In this document: in pieces, positions 12,072-20,663 of the stretch
Layout of the letters: each line of letters starts with the position of its first letter
How positions within the stretch are numbered: position 1 is the stretch's first letter
DNA from: Treponema sp.
Lineage (GTDB): Bacteria > Spirochaetota > Spirochaetia > Treponematales > Breznakiellaceae
Assembly: GCA_031279815.1 (NCBI GenBank)
Contig: JAITHW010000134.1
Location: forward strand, 1-47,947
Direction: 5' to 3'
DNA length: 47,947 nt
Notes under the pieces: generated by a model
Told to the model about the DNA's origin: nothing
Databases searched by the model: none
What the model saw: only the letters and a program-made list of their open reading frames with translations
Position numbers and translations under genes: made by a program

Positions 12072-12560
12072 CTAAGCAAACGGCGTATCGAGAATCTCCT
12101 GTTTCCGCGTTATAAAATGCCGGATCCCGCCGGATTCCCGTTCCCCGGCGCTTTTTACTAATTGAGCCTGTACCGGATTTCGGGACACATAATCAAAGGC
12201 CCTCAGAAAATCTATAAAGCGATCGATGATTTTGGAAAAGAACCGGCCTCCCCAGACATGGCCTTTGACAAAGTGAGCCTTGTTCCATGCCCGTGCAAAT
12301 AAGCCGAGGACCCGCTGCATGATCTTGGATAGGGAACCCTTGCGGCTTGGCCGGATTATCAGGTGGACATGGTTGCCCATGATGCAGAAGTTATGCACCG
12401 AGAAGCCGTATTTCTGTTTAGCCTGTTTCAGGATCTTGAGGAACAGTTGGCGCATGGCGGGGCAGTGGAAGATCATCTCGCCCCGATTGGCACGAGCGGT
12501 AACATGGTAGACGGCATTATTTGTCAGTATACGTCTCTTACGCATATCTATAATAGGCAT
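12072..12560 (-). CDS. REP-associated tyrosine transposase (Y1/HUH, IS200-like)
   Basis: This 162-residue protein is a single-domain HUH endonuclease of the RAYT type, which nicks single-stranded hairpin DNA. The HUH pair is H64 and H66 (MGNHVHLIIRPSR), and the catalytic tyrosine is probably Y124 (FDYVSRNPVQAQLV). The N-terminus ILTNNAVYHVTARANRGEMIF is also typical. The frame is intact and of usual length. ATG at 12560 or the one five codons later (MRKRR) could be the start; neither has a clear ribosome-binding site. GGGGACAGA upstream (12592-12600, minus strand) resembles sequence seen near 10524, perhaps a shared element. Confidence 0.92.
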   Translation of the reverse strand: MPIIDMRKRRILTNNAVYHVTARANRGEMIFHCPAMRQLFLKILKQAKQKYGFSVHNFCIMGNHVHLIIRPSRKGSLSKIMQRVLGLFARAWNKAHFVKGHVWGGRFFSKIIDRFIDFLRAFDYVSRNPVQAQLVKSAGERESGGIRHFITRKQEILDTPFA

Positions 12561-12616: not shown

Positions 12617-14527
12617 CTAATGCTGTATCTGTAATTGAAACTCGATTTGAAAATTTTCATCCGGATCAAGAGAAACCGGCTTGATGGGCATGATACAGGT
12701 AGATTGGTATAGCTCCTTCAAAATACCTCTACAAGAGCAAACGCTGCGGATATGCCTAATCCATGCGTCAAAATTCCGGTTTGAAGTAAGTTTGATCAAG
12801 GTCTCATTTTTTATGTCTTGAAACGTAATATCTCTTTGATTTATAATCAGTATGGAACCGGGAACCGTTGCAATTTGCTCTTCAGGGTTATAGTCCAAAA
12901 GCCGCAGGAAAGGTTCTCCTTCGCCAGGAAAGGAAAGGTCTATGCTAGGGATAAACTTAAAAGTTTCGGGAACACCGCCCCGGTTGTACAAGGAATAGCT
13001 CACCGTGAGAGTATCTTTTTTTAGATGGTAGTTCTTTTCAAGTTCCACATTCCCATAAGGGACGCCCGATTTGGCCGGAAGCCTGAAATAAACCCTGGAA
13101 TGATCCTTATCTATCTTTAACAATTCAAACCTTTCGCCCCCGCAATACCGGCCATGAATTCGAGGATCCGCCGCAAGAGCTCCCGGAAAATCCTGAAAAG
13201 TAATGTCCGAGGAAACCAAGCGGTCGGCAAAGGCGGTCCGCCTGAACCCATGCTGAAAGGTATCCAGATAATTCCAGGCCCTGGGAAGATAGTCAAATTC
13301 GAAAATACCAGCTCCTTCAAGGGTGATATAACAGTTAATCTGCTCTCCTTGAAAGAGATATTCTCCTTCGCCGTCTAAGTCAAAATCAAAATGTACCAAA
13401 GAAGGAATACCCCCCCTTTTTTCACGGGTTATTTTCTCCGCCTCCAATAGAGCCTTGTAAGCGGTTTTTCGGACCGCATGACGGGAAACACCTCCGTCTC
13501 TGGTGGGGCAGAAAGAATCATACCCCTGGGCCTTCCAGAGTTCCTCCCGAGCGGTACGCTTCCGGGACTTATCCCCTCGAAGCTGGTTAATTAAAACATG
13601 AGTAAACATCATCTTGGCATAGATGCCGTTGGCTTCAGGGCAGCCGACTAAGAACTGCCGCGGCAGACTGCTTTGAGATACAAAGGAATTTTTCGGAAAG
13701 TTATCTTCTTTCAGGGAACTGGGGAAGTAGTTCTTTTTGAGAAGCCGGCTGCTTTTGAACAGTTTGCCGGGCTGGGTAAATTCAATCCGGGATCCAAATC
13801 CGGACAAGTCTTCAAAAAACCGGTGAAAGGTGAATTCCACAGCCTCTGTATCGGGATGCTCTACAAAGAACCGCTCCGGGAACACACAAATAATCCGTTC
13901 TTTTTGAGGGACAGAGGAAGAAAACTCTTGCAGCGCCTGTTCTATGACCTCGGAAGCCCGCCGATTGGCAAAGCCATCCGCTATCCGGCTTAGTACCGGA
14001 AAGACGGTGATGATTTTGCCTTGATCTTCGGTAATACTGGGCGCCAAAACATCGCCGGATAACCCTCCTTGTCTGAACTGTTTCTCATCAAGGAACGTAT
14101 AGGCCATACCGCAGGCGTTTAAAGGACCAACCATCTGAGGTTCCCAAGCCATAAGAGGCAGCATACAGCCTTGAGGCCGTTTGCCGAATTGTTTGCGAAG
14201 ATACGTGGTAAGGAGTTCTATCTGTCCTATTTTATCCGAGAGAGGCAGTAGAGGCATCATAGGTTCGTAGAATCCGCCTCCCAACAATTCTACTTGCTTC
14301 CGGGAAATCAAGTCTCCGATAAGCATGAAGAACTCAGGATGCGCCCGTTCCAGCCATTGCAATACCACCCCGGAATAATGCAGAGCGGCTTGAATTTTGG
14401 GGTATTTATATAAGGTCGAAATGAAGGGTTTTAAACCGGCCTTATACGCCTCTTCAAATGCCGCATCCCCTGCGCTCAATGGAATATGATAATGAGAACC
14501 CAAGATAAACTGTATTGTCTGATCCAT
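12617..14527 (-). CDS. GH57 alpha-amylase/4-alpha-glucanotransferase-like protein, probably non-catalytic
   Basis: This 636-residue protein follows GH57 4-alpha-glucanotransferases along its whole length: the HxHxP-like motif LGSHYHIPL (about 9-17), PFISTLYKYPKIQAALHYSGVVLQWL, KQVELLGGGFYEPMMPLL, GQIELLTTYLRKQFGKRPQG, then a DUF1925-like helical bundle (ELWKAQGYDSFCPTRDGG) and a DUF1926-like beta domain (HFDFDLDGEGEYLFQGE). At the nucleophile motif, normally WLTERVWxP, it reads MLPLMAWEP, with Leu125 at the Glu position. The acid motif, normally an Asp in DDGEKFG, reads FPERFFVEHPD. Catalytic loss is inferred from this alignment by eye. It may bind alpha-glucan or have a regulatory role. It lies 38 bases downstream of rnfA on the same strand. 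Confidence 0.85.
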   Translation of the reverse strand: MDQTIQFILGSHYHIPLSAGDAAFEEAYKAGLKPFISTLYKYPKIQAALHYSGVVLQWLERAHPEFFMLIGDLISRKQVELLGGGFYEPMMPLLPLSDKIGQIELLTTYLRKQFGKRPQGCMLPLMAWEPQMVGPLNACGMAYTFLDEKQFRQGGLSGDVLAPSITEDQGKIITVFPVLSRIADGFANRRASEVIEQALQEFSSSVPQKERIICVFPERFFVEHPDTEAVEFTFHRFFEDLSGFGSRIEFTQPGKLFKSSRLLKKNYFPSSLKEDNFPKNSFVSQSSLPRQFLVGCPEANGIYAKMMFTHVLINQLRGDKSRKRTAREELWKAQGYDSFCPTRDGGVSRHAVRKTAYKALLEAEKITREKRGGIPSLVHFDFDLDGEGEYLFQGEQINCYITLEGAGIFEFDYLPRAWNYLDTFQHGFRRTAFADRLVSSDITFQDFPGALAADPRIHGRYCGGERFELLKIDKDHSRVYFRLPAKSGVPYGNVELEKNYHLKKDTLTVSYSLYNRGGVPETFKFIPSIDLSFPGEGEPFLRLLDYNPEEQIATVPGSILIINQRDITFQDIKNETLIKLTSNRNFDAWIRHIRSVCSCRGILKELYQSTCIMPIKPVSLDPDENFQIEFQLQIQH

Positions 14528-14565: not shown

Positions 14566-15153
14566 TTAGAATATACCAAGGATTTTAAAAAAAATAGCCG
14601 CAAGAGACGTAAATAATAAGGATAAAAGTCCCATTGCAATGAGCATGAGAGGGCGTCCCCGAAGATGCGGGGGAACGGCCTCCAAGTCGGATCGCTTACG
14701 GATGTAGTGGAGCAACAATATGGCAAGCAGACTGCCCAGGGCAAAGCTTAAAGAGAGGATCAGCGCCTCTAGGGGGGTTCCGGCTATATGGAGGGTCAGA
14801 TAAAGAGAGGTCATGGCAAGTCCGTTGTACGCGGAATCCGCGGCAAAGAACTTTGAATCAGGCGCCATAGAGGGGATGAAACGGACACATAAGGCCTCAA
14901 GTCCCATGCAGGCTAAAGCGCTGGAAGGGAACAGCAAAACATATTCAAGAAAACCAAAGGCGAGGGGGGATAAGAGATAAGAAAAGATAAACCAGAGTAT
15001 CAGAACCGATACAAAGAGAACCCCCGCTTGAAAAAGGGGAATAGGATCGGATCGCTCCTCTCCTTCTGCAATGCCCTGTATTCCTAAAGCAAAGTGCAGT
15101 ATTAAATTGAGGGAAAGACCGGCGCAAACACCCAAAGAGAACATGGACCCCAT
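14566..15153 (-). CDS. rnfA: Rnf-like electron transport complex subunit A
   Basis: This 195-residue protein has six likely membrane helices and the RnfA/NqrE pattern: SLGVCAGLSLNLILHFALGI, FLEYVLLFPSSALACMGLEALC, AADSAYNGLAMTSLYLTLHIAGTPLEALILSLSFALGSLLAILLL and LRGRPLMLIAMGLLSLLF. RnfA and RnfE share one ancestor and together hold an iron-sulfur site in the membrane; cysteines here are C10, C82 and C88. It is the last rnf gene, 11 bases after rnfE. The start at 15153 has GGAGG upstream (TTAGGAGGTTACTCG). Assignment to A and not E rests on gene order and the C-terminus; the divergence is high. Confidence 0.82.
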   Translation of the reverse strand: MGSMFSLGVCAGLSLNLILHFALGIQGIAEGEERSDPIPLFQAGVLFVSVLILWFIFSYLLSPLAFGFLEYVLLFPSSALACMGLEALCVRFIPSMAPDSKFFAADSAYNGLAMTSLYLTLHIAGTPLEALILSLSFALGSLLAILLLHYIRKRSDLEAVPPHLRGRPLMLIAMGLLSLLFTSLAAIFFKILGIF

Positions 15154-15164
15154 CGAGTAACCTC

Positions 15165-15785
15165 CTAAGAACCAGGTTTTCTGATGCTGCGGAACAGGGC
15201 CGCCCCATAACCCAGCAGCAAGAGCGCCCCTGCGGAACTTGGTATTATTTTGATAGGCAGAAACGCGTCTCCTTCAAAATATTGGAAAAGCTCGATAAGC
15301 CCCTGGACACCCCCGGGCAGGGAAAGGGCCATAAACCCGATGGGTTCCCGGATCAGGGAAAAAGCGATGATCAGTAACCCAATAGAGCCCGCCTCTGCGG
15401 AAGCCTTGAGGAGCAGGGGAGAGATTTCCGAAGATTTGAGCTGAGAAAACAGGGGAGAACCGGCAGCGTAACAGGGCGCAAGCAGGATGATGTAAGCCAT
15501 TTCCATGGCCAGCAAAGGGCTGGCCAGCCAGAGGAGGAGCAGGAAGCCGCTTCCCAGAAGGCTTGTGAGAAAGATGAGGGTGATCTTTTTTCCTATTGCC
15601 GGATATATCGGTCTGGCGAAAAAAACCGCCGCCATAGTCAGGTTATACACCCACAGGAGCGCGGCTGCGGCAACTAGTCCAAAGGCAAGCCGGCTTGAAG
15701 ACATGACTATGAATCCCGCTCCGGCCAAGGTAGAAAAAGGGGCATGCAGATCCCGATACAGAAAGGTTTTAAGCGGATGGTTCAT
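15165..15785 (-). CDS. rnfE: Rnf-like electron transport complex subunit E
   Basis: This 206-residue membrane protein has about six helices and RnfE/NqrD-like layout: FIVMSSSRLAFGLVAAAALLWVYNLTMAAVFF, KKITLIFLTSLLGSGFLLLLWLASPLLAMEMAYIILLAPCYAAG, LLLKASAEAGSIGLLIIAFSLIREPIGFMALSLPG, then ASSAGALLLLGYGAALFRSI-like end. The REPxGFxALSLPGG block is the clearest RnfE signature. The start overlaps the stop of the RnfG-like gene by 4 bases. The family cysteine in the first helices is missing; only one Cys (LLAPCYAAG) was seen. Confidence 0.78.
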   Translation of the reverse strand: MNHPLKTFLYRDLHAPFSTLAGAGFIVMSSSRLAFGLVAAAALLWVYNLTMAAVFFARPIYPAIGKKITLIFLTSLLGSGFLLLLWLASPLLAMEMAYIILLAPCYAAGSPLFSQLKSSEISPLLLKASAEAGSIGLLIIAFSLIREPIGFMALSLPGGVQGLIELFQYFEGDAFLPIKIIPSSAGALLLLGYGAALFRSIRKPGS

Positions 15786-16243
15786 GGTTCCTCCTGAACA
15801 TGCTGCAAATCCATTTCTATGCGACGTATATAGGTAGTTATGATCCCCTGGGGAAGGCGCTTTACGGTCTGTTCCACCCGGGTATTTAAAGGAATGATTT
15901 CATTAACCTTTCCTTCATCAGAAACCATCGCCACACAGGGAAAGCGGATGCCCTCGGACATCATGGCAAACACCAAGGCTCGATTGTTAGAATTCCTCAC
16001 CGTATACCATGTTCCCAGAGGAATCCGCCTTTTGGGAAGTTTAGACCGAGGAACGGGATCTTCTAAATACTGGGTATGACCGGTAGCAGCCAACAGGATG
16101 TTTACGTTTCCCTGTAAAAGCCTGATCCGGATAGGCTGGGTAAAAAACCAGAGGAACCCTCCTATGAGGAGGAGACCTACGATCCAGGCCGTAAAAACCC
16201 CCAGCTCTTTTGGATTAGTATCTTTAAACAGATCCGCTTTCAT
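15782..16243 (-). CDS. RnfG-position protein without a flavin-attachment motif
   Basis: This 153-residue protein has one membrane helix (about 14-38, AWIVGLLLIGGFLWFF) and an outward domain of about 115 residues. It sits exactly where RnfG lies in rnfCDGEA operons. The segment RALVFAMMSEGIRFPCVAMVSDEGKVNEIIPLNTRVE aligns by eye with the middle of an FMN_bind domain, but the S(T)GATxTS motif that takes covalent FMN is missing and the protein stops short. ATG at 16243 is chosen because GGAGG is 8 bases upstream; it overlaps the rnfD stop (ATGA). It is called RnfG-like by position; another identity is possible. Confidence 0.68.
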   Translation of the reverse strand: MKADLFKDTNPKELGVFTAWIVGLLLIGGFLWFFTQPIRIRLLQGNVNILLAATGHTQYLEDPVPRSKLPKRRIPLGTWYTVRNSNNRALVFAMMSEGIRFPCVAMVSDEGKVNEIIPLNTRVEQTVKRLPQGIITTYIRRIEMDLQHVQEEP

Positions 16244-17313
16244 GCAACCTGCCTCCATTTTTTATTGCTATATAAATGCCGGCTTTCCACGTCTCGAATC
16301 AAAGGGACCACCGTATTAACCAGAGCCATGACAAAAACAGCGCCGTATACCTCCGCGCCTTGATAACGGAATAAAAATGTAAGCCCTCCCCCTAAAACCG
16401 AAACCCCCAAGACCCCTTTATTCGATTTAGGCCCTGTGGCCGGATCAGAGGCTAACAAGAAGGCCCCTGCCAAGACACCCCCCGAAAAGAGACCGAAAAA
16501 CAGATCCCCTTTGCCGAAAACGCCTCCGAAAGGTATGGCCCCAAAGAGCCTGACCAGAAACACATAGACCCCCACATAGGCAGCGGGAATCCACGCACGG
16601 TTTACCTTAGATGCGGTAATGATAATGGTTCCCACTAAAAGCGCGAAAACTCCCCGATCCGCGATGATTCCTGGTGCGGAAGTATTGAACAACTCGATAT
16701 ACGTTCTGGGGAATTCCAATTGGGTGAGGGAAAAGAACCCATTCTGTAGAAATAATCCCAAAAACGTATCCGGACTTGAACCGTATTCTATTCCCATCAG
16801 CTTGAAAATCCCCAGAGGGGAACCCTCTGGATCCGAAAGCCCGTTACCCATCCCCTCGTATATCAGGGTCAGAGGAGACTTTTCCAAAGCCTTATTGAAA
16901 ACCTCGGGCCAGGAAAACCGGATAAAAAGCCATCCCCCTGCCGCAGGGTTCATCCAGTTTGCTCCTAACCCTCCAAAACTATGCTTCACCACCGTCATGG
17001 CAAAAGCCGCGCCCATGGCGGCGTATATCGGATGCAGTTGATTGGGCAGGAGCAGGACCAGAATGAGCGCGGAGGTAACCGCGCTGCCGTCTTTTATCGT
17101 TCCCGACCGTTCGGTTCTGAAATAGATCAGCGATTCCGTGAGTACTGCGGTAACTACCGCGGTAACCGCGAGGATCAGAGACGCAAAAGAATCTTTCAGG
17201 GAAGACTGGAAAATAGCCGAAAATGCGCACAAACTGACCAGCCACATCCGGGCCGCGGTCGGCTGGGCAAGGTGTATCTGGGGTTTATATAACCGCGCTT
17301 CCTGTCTCACCAT
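16240..17313 (-). CDS. rnfD: Rnf-like electron transport complex subunit D
   Basis: This 357-residue membrane protein of the NqrB/RnfD family has about nine helices. Clear signatures are MWLVSLCAFSAIFQSSLKDSF, DGSAVTSALILVLLLPNQLHPIYAAMGAAFAMTVVKHSFGG, GANWMNPAAGGWLFIRFSWPEVF, AYVGVYVFLVRLFGAIPFGG, and FFGLFSGGVLAGAFLLASDPATGPKSNKG. In classical RnfD a Thr in a D/SGAT motif after the NPAxxG block takes FMN; here that region reads LSDPEGSPLGIFKL and no SGAT is seen. The start lies 3 bases after the rnfC stop. Confidence 0.88.
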   Translation of the reverse strand: MVRQEARLYKPQIHLAQPTAARMWLVSLCAFSAIFQSSLKDSFASLILAVTAVVTAVLTESLIYFRTERSGTIKDGSAVTSALILVLLLPNQLHPIYAAMGAAFAMTVVKHSFGGLGANWMNPAAGGWLFIRFSWPEVFNKALEKSPLTLIYEGMGNGLSDPEGSPLGIFKLMGIEYGSSPDTFLGLFLQNGFFSLTQLEFPRTYIELFNTSAPGIIADRGVFALLVGTIIITASKVNRAWIPAAYVGVYVFLVRLFGAIPFGGVFGKGDLFFGLFSGGVLAGAFLLASDPATGPKSNKGVLGVSVLGGGLTFLFRYQGAEVYGAVFVMALVNTVVPLIRDVESRHLYSNKKWRQVA

Positions 17314-17316
17314 GAC

Positions 17317-18621
17317 TTACTTCCCCTGAGCCGCATCTTGTATAACCGTGCTGAGCGGAAGCCGGGAAGGGCACACCAGATCGCAGCACCCGCAGCCATG
17401 ACATGCCGCAACAATTTCCGGGATTGTCCCTGTTTGCGGTCCCGTGATCGCTTTGAAAAGGGCCTCCGGGTCTAATTCCACCGGGCATACCATCCTACAG
17501 TCCCCGCAACCGATACAGTTCCGTCTAACCGTGCCTCCGGTCTGATGTTCCAAGAGGGCGGCTACCGCATAACTGGTCTTAATCACCGGCTCATCTAGAT
17601 CCGCAACCCGGCGTCCCGAGAGGGGGGAACCGATAGCGATCCGCTGAGGTTCCCGTACAAAACCGCCGCATTCGGCAAAGAGGTCCCTAAGCCGCGTTCC
17701 TATCCGGGCTCTCATCACTTGAGGGGTTTTGACCGCAGAACCTCCCACCGCCACATACCGATCCAGAACAGGCTTTTTCAGTTTTACCGCATCATAAACC
17801 GCCGCCAAGGTTGCGGGGCCTAAAATAAGAAAGGATCCCAGGTTAAGATTCTCATGTTTTTCATAATTCCTGAGTACCAGTTCCAGTTCCCGCGGGTTTT
17901 TCTGGGGATACCGGGAACCTACCAACACCAGGGAGGCAGGGACGCCGTAGTTTCCGGCTTCCGCAAGAAGCAAATTTCCCAGTTCCTTTTCCTGATGGGA
18001 AACCGCATAGACAATACGGCTTATCTGAACCGAACGGCTGATGATCATACTTCCTTCCGCCACCGCCTTGAGCCGTTCCCGGCACAGCACATAATCCGCT
18101 GCAAGCCAGGGATCATCAAATACGCAACGAACCACCAGAGTAGCGGGGGTTTCGGTTGAACGGGAAGGGGCGGAGGCAAGCAACTCCGCTACGGGCCGGC
18201 CGGAACCTTCCATTTCCACAACCCCATAATCGGCGATCAGTTGTTGCAGGGCAAAAGGCATGAGTTCTTCCCAGGGAAATACCTTCTCTTCCTTTCCCAG
18301 TTTTTCAAAACCCCCTCCCAAACGGATGACCAACGCCTCATTGGACATACCCTCGGCCATGTCCCAAGAAACAGTACGAACCACTTTACCGGGAACCGTA
18401 GCATGGATATTGGCCGATCCGGGGCCTTGCCCCCGCCCGATAAGCATTCCCTCCCTCACCTGGTCTCCCACGGCCACCACCGGCGAAGCCTTACCTCCCG
18501 GGTGCTGGATCAGAGGGATCACCGAAAGTACCGGAAGAAAGGCAATAACACCGGCGTCTTTAGGAGGAACGGTTGGATCTTCAAAGGATATCCCTCCCCG
18601 GGGAAACGTATATATTTTCAT
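17317..18621 (-). CDS. rnfC: Rnf-like electron transport complex subunit C
   Basis: This 434-residue protein keeps the RnfC order. An N-terminal barrel (TFPRGGISFEDP, VIPLIQHPGGKASPVV, VGDQVREGMLIGRGQG, IHATVPGKVV) is followed by a Rossmann-like part, a SLBB-like part (YVAVGGSAVKTPQVMRARIGT) and two 4Fe-4S sites, CIGCGDCRMVCP and CHGCGCCDLVCP. The usual flavin/NADH loop GLGGAxFPTxxKL reads VEMEGSGRPVAELL, ECEPY reads RCVFDDP, and YPxGxE reads YPQKNPRE. NADH binding is therefore doubtful (inference). Its start overlaps the stop of the 517-residue membrane protein (ATGA). Confidence 0.88.
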   Translation of the reverse strand: MKIYTFPRGGISFEDPTVPPKDAGVIAFLPVLSVIPLIQHPGGKASPVVAVGDQVREGMLIGRGQGPGSANIHATVPGKVVRTVSWDMAEGMSNEALVIRLGGGFEKLGKEEKVFPWEELMPFALQQLIADYGVVEMEGSGRPVAELLASAPSRSTETPATLVVRCVFDDPWLAADYVLCRERLKAVAEGSMIISRSVQISRIVYAVSHQEKELGNLLLAEAGNYGVPASLVLVGSRYPQKNPRELELVLRNYEKHENLNLGSFLILGPATLAAVYDAVKLKKPVLDRYVAVGGSAVKTPQVMRARIGTRLRDLFAECGGFVREPQRIAIGSPLSGRRVADLDEPVIKTSYAVAALLEHQTGGTVRRNCIGCGDCRMVCPVELDPEALFKAITGPQTGTIPEIVAACHGCGCCDLVCPSRLPLSTVIQDAAQGK

Positions 18622-20171
18622 GCGGCTATCCGTTTATCATGATATACTAAGAGATGTTTATGTTTTCCCTGTTGTGTTACCTGAAATAAGGCCATACTAT
18701 ACACACCCAGTACTACTAATACCGGAACAAGTCCCATCATAGGAATAGCAGGGATATGGCCGGTATTCTTAGGGCCAGTATACTTGAAATCCCTAAGAAA
18801 TGCTATGAGGTCTTCCAGGGGAAACGGGGGAATTTCGCGGTTTTCATCTAAGGGATACATCGAAGCATATTCCCCGGATCCTGCAATAAGTCCGTCTTCC
18901 CCAAGACGGTAGCGCGCGTACCCTAAGCGGCTATCCTCATCAGACCGGGACAACCCGAGAGGGATAAAAGAAAAAGACCTCTGAAAGGCCAGATGGCGTT
19001 TATAATCGGCAGGATCAATAAAGTAACGGGGATCCGCCGCCGGTCCGGGAGCATGATATGCCTGAATCCCCATTATGGAGGGAATATACAGAGCCATGAG
19101 GGAAACTAGGGCAAAGGGGATGACAGTACCGTTACCTGCCCTTCGATTGGCGGAAGTCAGCAGGTATACTTGTGACCGGCCCCGGTTTGATTCGGTCCAG
19201 AGGGCGAGCAAGAGGAGGCAGGAGACACATAGCAAGGCGGGGATCCCCAATTCCTCAAGGGTATTTTGGTCGGCAAGCCCCAGCATCCCCTCTCCGGTAT
19301 AACCGAAGACTCCCGGCATATCCCAGAACATCCCTACCCATAAGCCTAACAGGATCATACATAAGAGGCTTCCTAATACAGGAGCGACGAAAGGGTACTT
19401 CATTCCCTGCCCATCCCATCGGCAGGCGCAAAGCTGCCGAATCAATGCCATCAAAACCCCCGATAGGCCGATCAGCGCGGCGCCCAGGGCAAGGCCTGCC
19501 GGTCCGGCAAATACCAAAGCCCCCAAAACCGGCAGCTGGGTCGCGGTGAACCAGGGAATATCCGACAGAATCAAAGCCCCTAGGGAGGCTAATATAAAGA
19601 GCAGGAAGTAACACAAAAGGGGCTGCTCATATCCTATAAATTCGATTGAAAAAGGGATTGATCCTAGGGATGCGGCCAGGGACGCTTCAAACCTTTCAAC
19701 CTGTTTCTTATTTATCCAGTTGTCTGAAACAGGTATGGTTCCCCAATCAGGTTTGTCAAACCCCGGCCTTTTGATCCGGTTTTCTATAGACCCCCCTGCA
19801 AGAGGAATAAAAAACAGCCGTTTCCCATCCCGTACAAAAAAGGAACGTAGTTTTTTCCCATACCCGTCGTTCCTGGGATCAAATTCTTCAAGGCGATCCG
19901 GATATTCATCTAAGGGAATCCGCTTTAAAGTGCCGAAATCATCCAGAAACACCCACTGGGTAGACTCAGATATATACCCCCCGGCAAGGTCCGGCGGGAG
20001 CATATTCCCGATACGCCTGTCCGGGTAGGACGCGTCTACCGCAAGCACCGCATAGCTTGCATGGTTTTTCGCAGGAATACCCTTGAGGGCTAAAGCGGTC
20101 ATAAAACCCCCAAAACCGAGGGAAAAAAGCACTGAAATCAGCGCCGGCTTTCTGAAAGACATCCGGATCAT
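18618..20171 (-). CDS. Membrane protein of unknown function, coupled to rnfC
   Basis: This 517-residue protein has an N-terminal helix (about 9-30), an outside domain of some 145 residues (about 31-175), a block of six or so helices (about 178-370, beginning LLCYFLLFILASLGALILS), a second outside domain of about 115 residues (AYHAPGPAADPRYFIDPADYKRH onward) and a last helix (about 482-503). I recognise no family and no cofactor motif. It starts 3 bases after the YuiD-like gene and overlaps rnfC by 4 bases, so it is made together with the Rnf-like complex. A role as an extra subunit or assembly factor is inferred from that coupling only. Confidence 0.8.
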   Translation of the reverse strand: MIRMSFRKPALISVLFSLGFGGFMTALALKGIPAKNHASYAVLAVDASYPDRRIGNMLPPDLAGGYISESTQWVFLDDFGTLKRIPLDEYPDRLEEFDPRNDGYGKKLRSFFVRDGKRLFFIPLAGGSIENRIKRPGFDKPDWGTIPVSDNWINKKQVERFEASLAASLGSIPFSIEFIGYEQPLLCYFLLFILASLGALILSDIPWFTATQLPVLGALVFAGPAGLALGAALIGLSGVLMALIRQLCACRWDGQGMKYPFVAPVLGSLLCMILLGLWVGMFWDMPGVFGYTGEGMLGLADQNTLEELGIPALLCVSCLLLLALWTESNRGRSQVYLLTSANRRAGNGTVIPFALVSLMALYIPSIMGIQAYHAPGPAADPRYFIDPADYKRHLAFQRSFSFIPLGLSRSDEDSRLGYARYRLGEDGLIAGSGEYASMYPLDENREIPPFPLEDLIAFLRDFKYTGPKNTGHIPAIPMMGLVPVLVVLGVYSMALFQVTQQGKHKHLLVYHDKRIAA

Positions 20172-20174
20172 AAC

Positions 20175-20663
20175 CTATAAACTAGCGTAAGCTGCGGCAA
20201 TAAAAATACCCAACAGCCCTCCGACCACCACTTCCAGGGGCGTATGACCGTTGACCTCTTTGACCGGATGATACTCGATATTCAACCGATCCGCCACATT
20301 CCGTCCTAGGAGATTGAGTACCCTGGCTTGGATTCCTGAAGAACGGCGTACCCCCACGGCATCCCGCATCACAATGAGGGCAAGCCAGAAGGAAACTACG
20401 AACAGATTTGAACCGACCCCATCTCTAAACGCAACCGACGTGGCCATAGAAGAGACCAGCGCCGCATGACTCGAGGGCATTCCGCCGGTACGCCAGAAAA
20501 GGGTTGCCAATATCTCTCGAGGGGTTCTTTTACGGCCATTCAGTAATACGATCATCGCCTTGATAATCTGTGCAAAAAGCCAGCTTGATATGGCAGACAA
20601 AAAAATGGGATTTTCAAAAAAACTTTTTACCGCTCCCCCTCGTACAGACATTGCTAAAGACAT
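20175..20663 (-). CDS. Divergent PAP2-family membrane protein (DUF212, YuiD-like)
   Basis: This 162-residue protein is a DUF212 member: FLSAISSWLFAQIIKAMIVL, RTGGMPSSHAALVSSMATSVAFRDG, FWLALIVMRDAVGVRRSSGIQARVLN and VKEVNGHTPLEVVVGGLLGIFIA. The GMPSSHAA and NGHTPxEVxxG motifs match the phosphatase-type signature of the family, though activity has not been defined as far as I know. It is the first gene of the run into the 517-residue protein and rnfC-A. No ribosome-binding site is seen before either ATG (20663 or 20651); a promoter at 20670-20698 would give almost no leader. Confidence 0.85.
   Translation of the reverse strand: MSLAMSVRGGAVKSFFENPIFLSAISSWLFAQIIKAMIVLLNGRKRTPREILATLFWRTGGMPSSHAALVSSMATSVAFRDGVGSNLFVVSFWLALIVMRDAVGVRRSSGIQARVLNLLGRNVADRLNIEYHPVKEVNGHTPLEVVVGGLLGIFIAAAYASL

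Follow-up and report, generated by a model that had tools for sequence, protein, structure and literature searches.

A second, cofactor-stripped Rnf operon in a termite-gut spirochaete

The operon and its subunits

Five open reading frames (ORFs) between positions 14566 and 18621 of a 47,947-nucleotide stretch of Treponema sp. DNA (the window; contig JAITHW010000134.1, assembly GCA_031279815.1) encode relatives of subunits of the Rnf complex, the ferredoxin:NAD+ oxidoreductase. The source is a metagenome-assembled genome (MAG) of a termite-gut spirochaete (2.8 Mb, about 80% complete), whose named relatives are Treponema/Spirochaetaceae MAGs and Breznakiella homolactica. All five frames lie on the minus strand and are open, and neighbours overlap or nearly abut. 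An earlier note, made from the sequence alone, had described the classical gene order, C-D-G-E-A, and the lack of RnfB in the operon. The ORF list and profile searches confirm the order, and there is no rnfB among the genes of the window.

Profile searches recognise the subunits to very different degrees. The RnfC-like protein (434 amino acids; 17317..18621) reaches 218 bits against TIGR01945, under the cut-off of 246. The RnfD-like protein (357 amino acids; 16240..17313) is a clear match to PF03116 (190 bits), yet falls below the NCBIfam curated cut-off, and the RnfA-like protein (195 amino acids; 14566..15153) matches TIGR01943 weakly, with 39 bits against a cut-off of 229. The RnfE-like (206 amino acids; 15165..15785) and RnfG-like (158 amino acids; 15782..16258) proteins gave no match in the Pfam/NCBIfam profile search; both were assigned by synteny, iterative profiles and fold. 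The model of the G-like protein (predicted local distance difference test score, pLDDT, 91) has a single membrane helix, a small β-sheet and a C-terminal helix. Its top matches in the PDB are RnfG chains, with weak scores (7zc6_G; Z 6.0, root-mean-square deviation (rmsd) 7.1 over 139 residues). The protein is a shrunken RnfG.

Cofactor sites

Elsewhere in the same genome, contig C70 carries a complete classical rnfCDGEAB with rnfB as the last gene; this set (G000:C70) is the reference for the site comparison. The genome also has one ApbE. Both the second classical set and the rnfB gene for which the earlier note had advised a search are thus present. The possibility that rnfB serves the window operon from elsewhere as an ordinary partner is rejected: since the gene ends a complete classical rnf, RnfB belongs to that set. 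Sequence comparison shows the window operon to be a second Rnf paralogue, stripped of cofactors, that coexists with a complete classical Rnf.

The flavin mononucleotide (FMN) and NADH loops of the stripped RnfC read EMEGSGRPV, CVFDDPW and YPQKNPR, against GMGGAGFPS, GAECEPY and YPQGGEK in the genome's own classical RnfC, while both CxxCxxCxxxC motifs are intact. This agrees with the earlier description of an RnfC that has lost GLGGAxFPT, ECEPY and YPxGxE and retains both 4Fe-4S sites. The two motifs, eight cysteines in all, are kept in 108/108 RnfC sequences examined. The G-like protein is short, as had been noted, and the [S/T]GA[S/T]xT motif of the RnfG FMN site was not found in it. For RnfD, the reported absence of SGAT is correct in that the flavinylated threonine is gone, but the motif is not wholly absent; aligned by eye, the loop DPEGSPLGI, with a serine in EGSPLGI, stands against TTGATPLGI in the classical protein. 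The serine remnant occurs in about half of the family; the closest relative has alanine, and in many others the segment is deleted. Covalent FMN on the window's RnfD is therefore possible, but would not be required. The Asn (of NPA) and Asp (of SDP) matching the riboflavin ligands N123 and D249 of Acetobacterium woodii RnfD (PMC11889175) are present, and they are kept in nearly all of the window's family. A further change, additional to those listed earlier, concerns the [2Fe-2S] cluster shared by RnfA and RnfE: none of the four cysteines stands at a ligand column, and only one does if a three-column shift is allowed. The RnfA-like protein has lost both of its two, and the RnfE-like protein retains one offset cysteine.

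In A. woodii, electrons pass from ferredoxin to RnfB, then to the A/E [2Fe-2S] cluster, the FMN of RnfG, the FMN and riboflavin of RnfD, the two 4Fe-4S clusters and FMN of RnfC, and finally NAD+; ferredoxin:NAD+ activity and growth both disappear when the [2Fe-2S] cysteines, the FMN residues of RnfG or the riboflavin residues are removed (PMC11889175). Four of these stations are missing from the stripped set, namely the clusters of RnfB, the [2Fe-2S] cluster of the membrane, the FMN of RnfG and the FMN/NADH site of RnfC, and on known Rnf biochemistry it therefore cannot act as a ferredoxin:NAD+ pump by this path.

Distribution and stepwise loss

A clear orthologue of the stripped RnfC is found in 31 of the 36 sampled genomes of the family (49–80% identity). 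At the same locus, between a membrane protein here termed X517 and a GH57 gene, many other Spirochaetia, among them members of other orders, hold a complete Rnf in which every motif is present and rnfB comes last; genomes of this kind mostly have a single RnfC. Gene order thus shows the stripped operon to lie where Spirochaetia ancestrally carried rnf (DUF212, a membrane protein of about 500 amino acids, C-D-G-E-A-B, GH57), and an alternative complex of separate origin is rejected in favour of this locus having been stripped stepwise. In a tree of RnfC with the classical copies as its root (FastTree; some branches are long), complete loci are deepest and stripped loci are nested, with at least seven changes in the state of B along the tree.

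Several genomes hold intermediate states. RnfC is altered in G036, where the D, G and A/E sites are intact; B alone is missing in G148. G237 and G242 lack B and keep the four cysteines, and G042, G050 and G053 have lost both B and the A/E cysteines while keeping the RnfD threonine. In the Treponema-type genomes G048, G054 and G051 (loci L059, L050 and L089), B is about 200 amino acids long; its N-terminal FeS domain is gone and ferredoxin-like 4Fe-4S motifs remain. E is lost in G113, G140 and G076. At L129 (G225) and L141 (G168), the locus has shrunk to X517, C and D, and GH57 follows directly; G, E, A and B are all missing from it.

A second rnf is present in the genomes of 39 of the 48 loci with absent or truncated B, against 7 of the 38 with full B (Fisher p = 5e-9, a value inflated by shared ancestry). 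The phylogenetically corrected test of the association comprised five independent pairs, too few to reach significance. Second sets were counted by RnfC matches, so that NQR sets are invisible to this count; G050, for example, has a second canonical A/E pair. Taken together, the loci indicate stepwise loss of subunits and sites in several lineages, for the most part where the genome has a second rnf.

Selection

The window operon is under purifying selection. Among close relatives, ratios of nonsynonymous to synonymous substitution rates (dN/dS) are 0.08–0.11 for RnfC, 0.09–0.19 for D, 0.12–0.25 for A/E, 0.20–0.34 for G and about 0.17–0.26 for X517, with synonymous sites near saturation in some pairs. 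Constraint on RnfC, whose range is that of the window's genus, is the strongest in the operon and comparable to that on the adjoining GH57 gene. A/E ratios are 0.07–0.25 in stripped loci and 0.01–0.06 in complete ones; constraint on the pump part has therefore relaxed, yet not vanished.

The neighbourhood and X517

The gene order DUF212, X517, C-D-G-E-A, GH57 is shared across the order of bacteria to which the window belongs. On the minus strand of the window, the DUF212 (divergent PAP2) gene lies at 20175..20663 and the X517 gene at 18618..20171, directly upstream of rnfC as in most genomes examined. The downstream neighbour, a GH57 glucanotransferase-like gene, lies at 12617..14527 (minus strand); in complete loci rnfB stands just before it. 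A 162-amino-acid ORF at 12072-12560, which by eye resembles a Y1/REP-type transposase, adjoins this conserved block.

X517 is a multi-helix membrane protein of about 517 amino acids with periplasmic domains, and it belongs to no family of Pfam or NCBIfam. D98, P99, D102, F112 and G223 are among its conserved residues. The model (pLDDT 79) comprises a helix, a periplasmic α/β domain, a helix bundle, a second periplasmic segment and a last helix. Its top PDB matches are nearly all RND proteins, with weak scores (Foldseek E 0.08, template modelling (TM) score 0.27; VIA Z 10.9, rmsd 6.5 over 272 residues), and a profile search of the PDB gave doubtful matches only. X517 also stands upstream of complete rnf loci (L097, L098, L107, L111 and others). 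It is therefore an old spirochaete Rnf neighbour and not a replacement for RnfB.

Stripped loci without a second Rnf

One 1,139,633-bp genome (G045) is taken to be that of Treponema pallidum, on the grounds that the best PDB match of its flavin-trafficking protein is 4ifu, the T. pallidum protein. Its orthologous locus, L051, has the same neighbours minus X517 and is the sole Rnf-type locus of the genome. Only the RnfC 4Fe-4S motifs are clear there; it has no RnfB, no FMN motif in RnfG, no NADH loops in RnfC and no A/E cysteine at a ligand column. Genome-wide, neither a canonical RnfA/E (PF02508) nor an RnfB FeS domain (PF04060) was found.

In the family of the window itself, a 99%-complete genome (G034, locus L060) also has the stripped operon and amounts to a natural test of this form alone; no canonical Rnf or Nqr A/E pair was found in that genome. 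The stripped form can thus persist by itself.

The T. pallidum locus (tp0151, rnfD, and neighbours) has been described as a noncanonical, flavodoxin-driven RNF that generates an ion gradient (PMC7512555, PMC11717252, PMC11371664). The locus is even more stripped than that of the window. Since T. pallidum has the stripped copy only, its proposed energy pump may not work as assumed; the RNF drawn into energy schemes of T. pallidum is predicted to be incapable of acting as a ferredoxin/flavodoxin:NAD+ oxidoreductase.

Possible function and alternatives

What would remain capable of redox chemistry is the former output arm of the complex at the cytoplasmic face, leading from the riboflavin of D to the two 4Fe-4S clusters of C. 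An RnfC-RnfD module may have been released from ion pumping once a second rnf arose, and could now relay electrons over a short path, or sense redox state, with a soluble carrier of the cytoplasm on one side and on the other a partner in the membrane or periplasm, for which X517 is a possibility. The altered A, E and G proteins would then provide a scaffold or a gated path, no longer driven by redox chemistry of their own. A repurposed RnfC-RnfD relay or sensor with X517 as candidate partner is our best guess, put forward in the awareness that it may well be wrong. Consistent with it, C and D are what is retained where the locus has lost G, E, A and B (G225, G168). A broader version is more tentative still: spirochaetes may repeatedly have converted the Rnf pump into a 4Fe-4S/riboflavin device of RnfC, RnfD and X517 without ferredoxin, NAD+ or a [2Fe-2S] gate, on which T. 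pallidum would rely solely and hence without Rnf energy conservation.

A different electron donor, one of the two options raised in the earlier note, is possible. Several observations weigh against a relay. The RnfC clusters could be structural. The riboflavin residues are lost in several Treponema, and in others N is replaced by H, so that a relay cannot be general. The loci reduced to C and D may be recent deletions (RnfC dN/dS 0.27 for G168/G227). As to X517, its weak RND-like fold match offers no electron-carrying site, its presence beside complete Rnf sets shows that the stripped form is not its only setting, and T. pallidum lacks it. A quinone reductase formed by RnfC and RnfD in the manner of NQR was also considered and rejected as a general solution: the genomes G000 (80% complete), G045, G037 and G225 lack UbiA prenyltransferases, and others have them.

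The other option of the earlier note, a purely non-redox role, is the alternative that survives best, though it is unlikely. The membrane subunits would make up a transporter, a channel or a regulatory scaffold, with RnfC as a cap, structural or sensory, whose clusters serve structure. In favour of it, apart from riboflavin no membrane redox site of the known path is left, NqrB and RnfD have a fold like that of transporters, and the Treponema copies lose even the riboflavin residues. These residues are nevertheless retained in the window's family, and the invariance of the eight RnfC cysteines, which extends even to T. pallidum, described as poor in iron enzymes (PMC11717252), makes such a role a poor fit.

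It is improbable that stripped subunits join classical RnfB, RnfG or A/E in a hybrid complex of altered activity. The excess of stripped loci in genomes with a second rnf would suit this idea; T. pallidum and G034, however, keep the operon although no canonical A/E or RnfB domain was found in the former and no canonical A/E pair in the latter, and the subunit interfaces are highly diverged. Similarly improbable is an Rnf that still works with altered cofactor binding, for instance as a flavodoxin:NAD+ pump. The T. pallidum proposal (PMC7512555) and the serine remnant of RnfD speak for it, but the RnfC FMN/NADH loops, the RnfG FMN motif, the [2Fe-2S] ligands and B are all missing, and single-site mutations at equivalent positions kill the A. 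woodii Rnf (PMC11889175). A decaying relic retained by chance is very improbable and random decay is rejected: several independent losses and the raised A/E ratios would fit, but every frame has stayed open in dozens of genomes that are far apart at synonymous sites, dN/dS is about 0.07–0.34, RnfC is as constrained as its GH57 neighbour and its clusters are always kept, all in line with the earlier suggestion that the operon changed coherently as a whole.

Comparison with known systems

With the Rnf complex (RnfABCDGE; 7zc6, 8ahx/8rb8/8rb9, 9eri) the stripped set shares homologous C, D, G, E and A subunits, the spirochaete gene order, the pair of 4Fe-4S sites in RnfC and the riboflavin residues of RnfD. 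It differs by the loss of RnfB, the [2Fe-2S] ligands, the RnfG FMN site and the RnfC FMN/NADH site, and by an RnfD FMN site that is absent or carries serine. Automatic rnf annotation in spirochaetes lumps two different things. A second, stripped Rnf in spirochaetes was not found described in the open-access literature searched, and a 2025 review of RNF and NQR does not mention spirochaetes.

The two-subunit Nqr/Rnf-like complexes (PMC11334425) likewise have an RnfD-type membrane domain without a covalent FMN site. They differ in that their membrane subunit carries a fused NAD-binding domain and their G-like partner is flavinylated; the stripped set has neither feature, and in the profile search its RnfD contains PF03116 as sole domain, with no PF00175 NAD-binding domain.

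For Na+-NQR, too, the model is an rnf operon that was duplicated and lost both rnfB and the FMN/NAD sites of RnfC (PMC4014512). There, the membrane redox chain was kept, the RnfC clusters were lost and NqrF was gained; here, the clusters are kept and the membrane chain is lost. The stripped RnfC, with both 4Fe-4S motifs, is thus not of NqrA type, and no nqrF adjoins the operon. The spirochaete loci form a natural series that leads by degrees from complete Rnf to a derivative nearly devoid of redox cofactors, and that arose several independent times. As this series shares the first steps postulated for Na+-NQR, namely a second operon and the disappearance of rnfB and of the NADH site in RnfC (PMC4014512), the model becomes testable on living intermediates.

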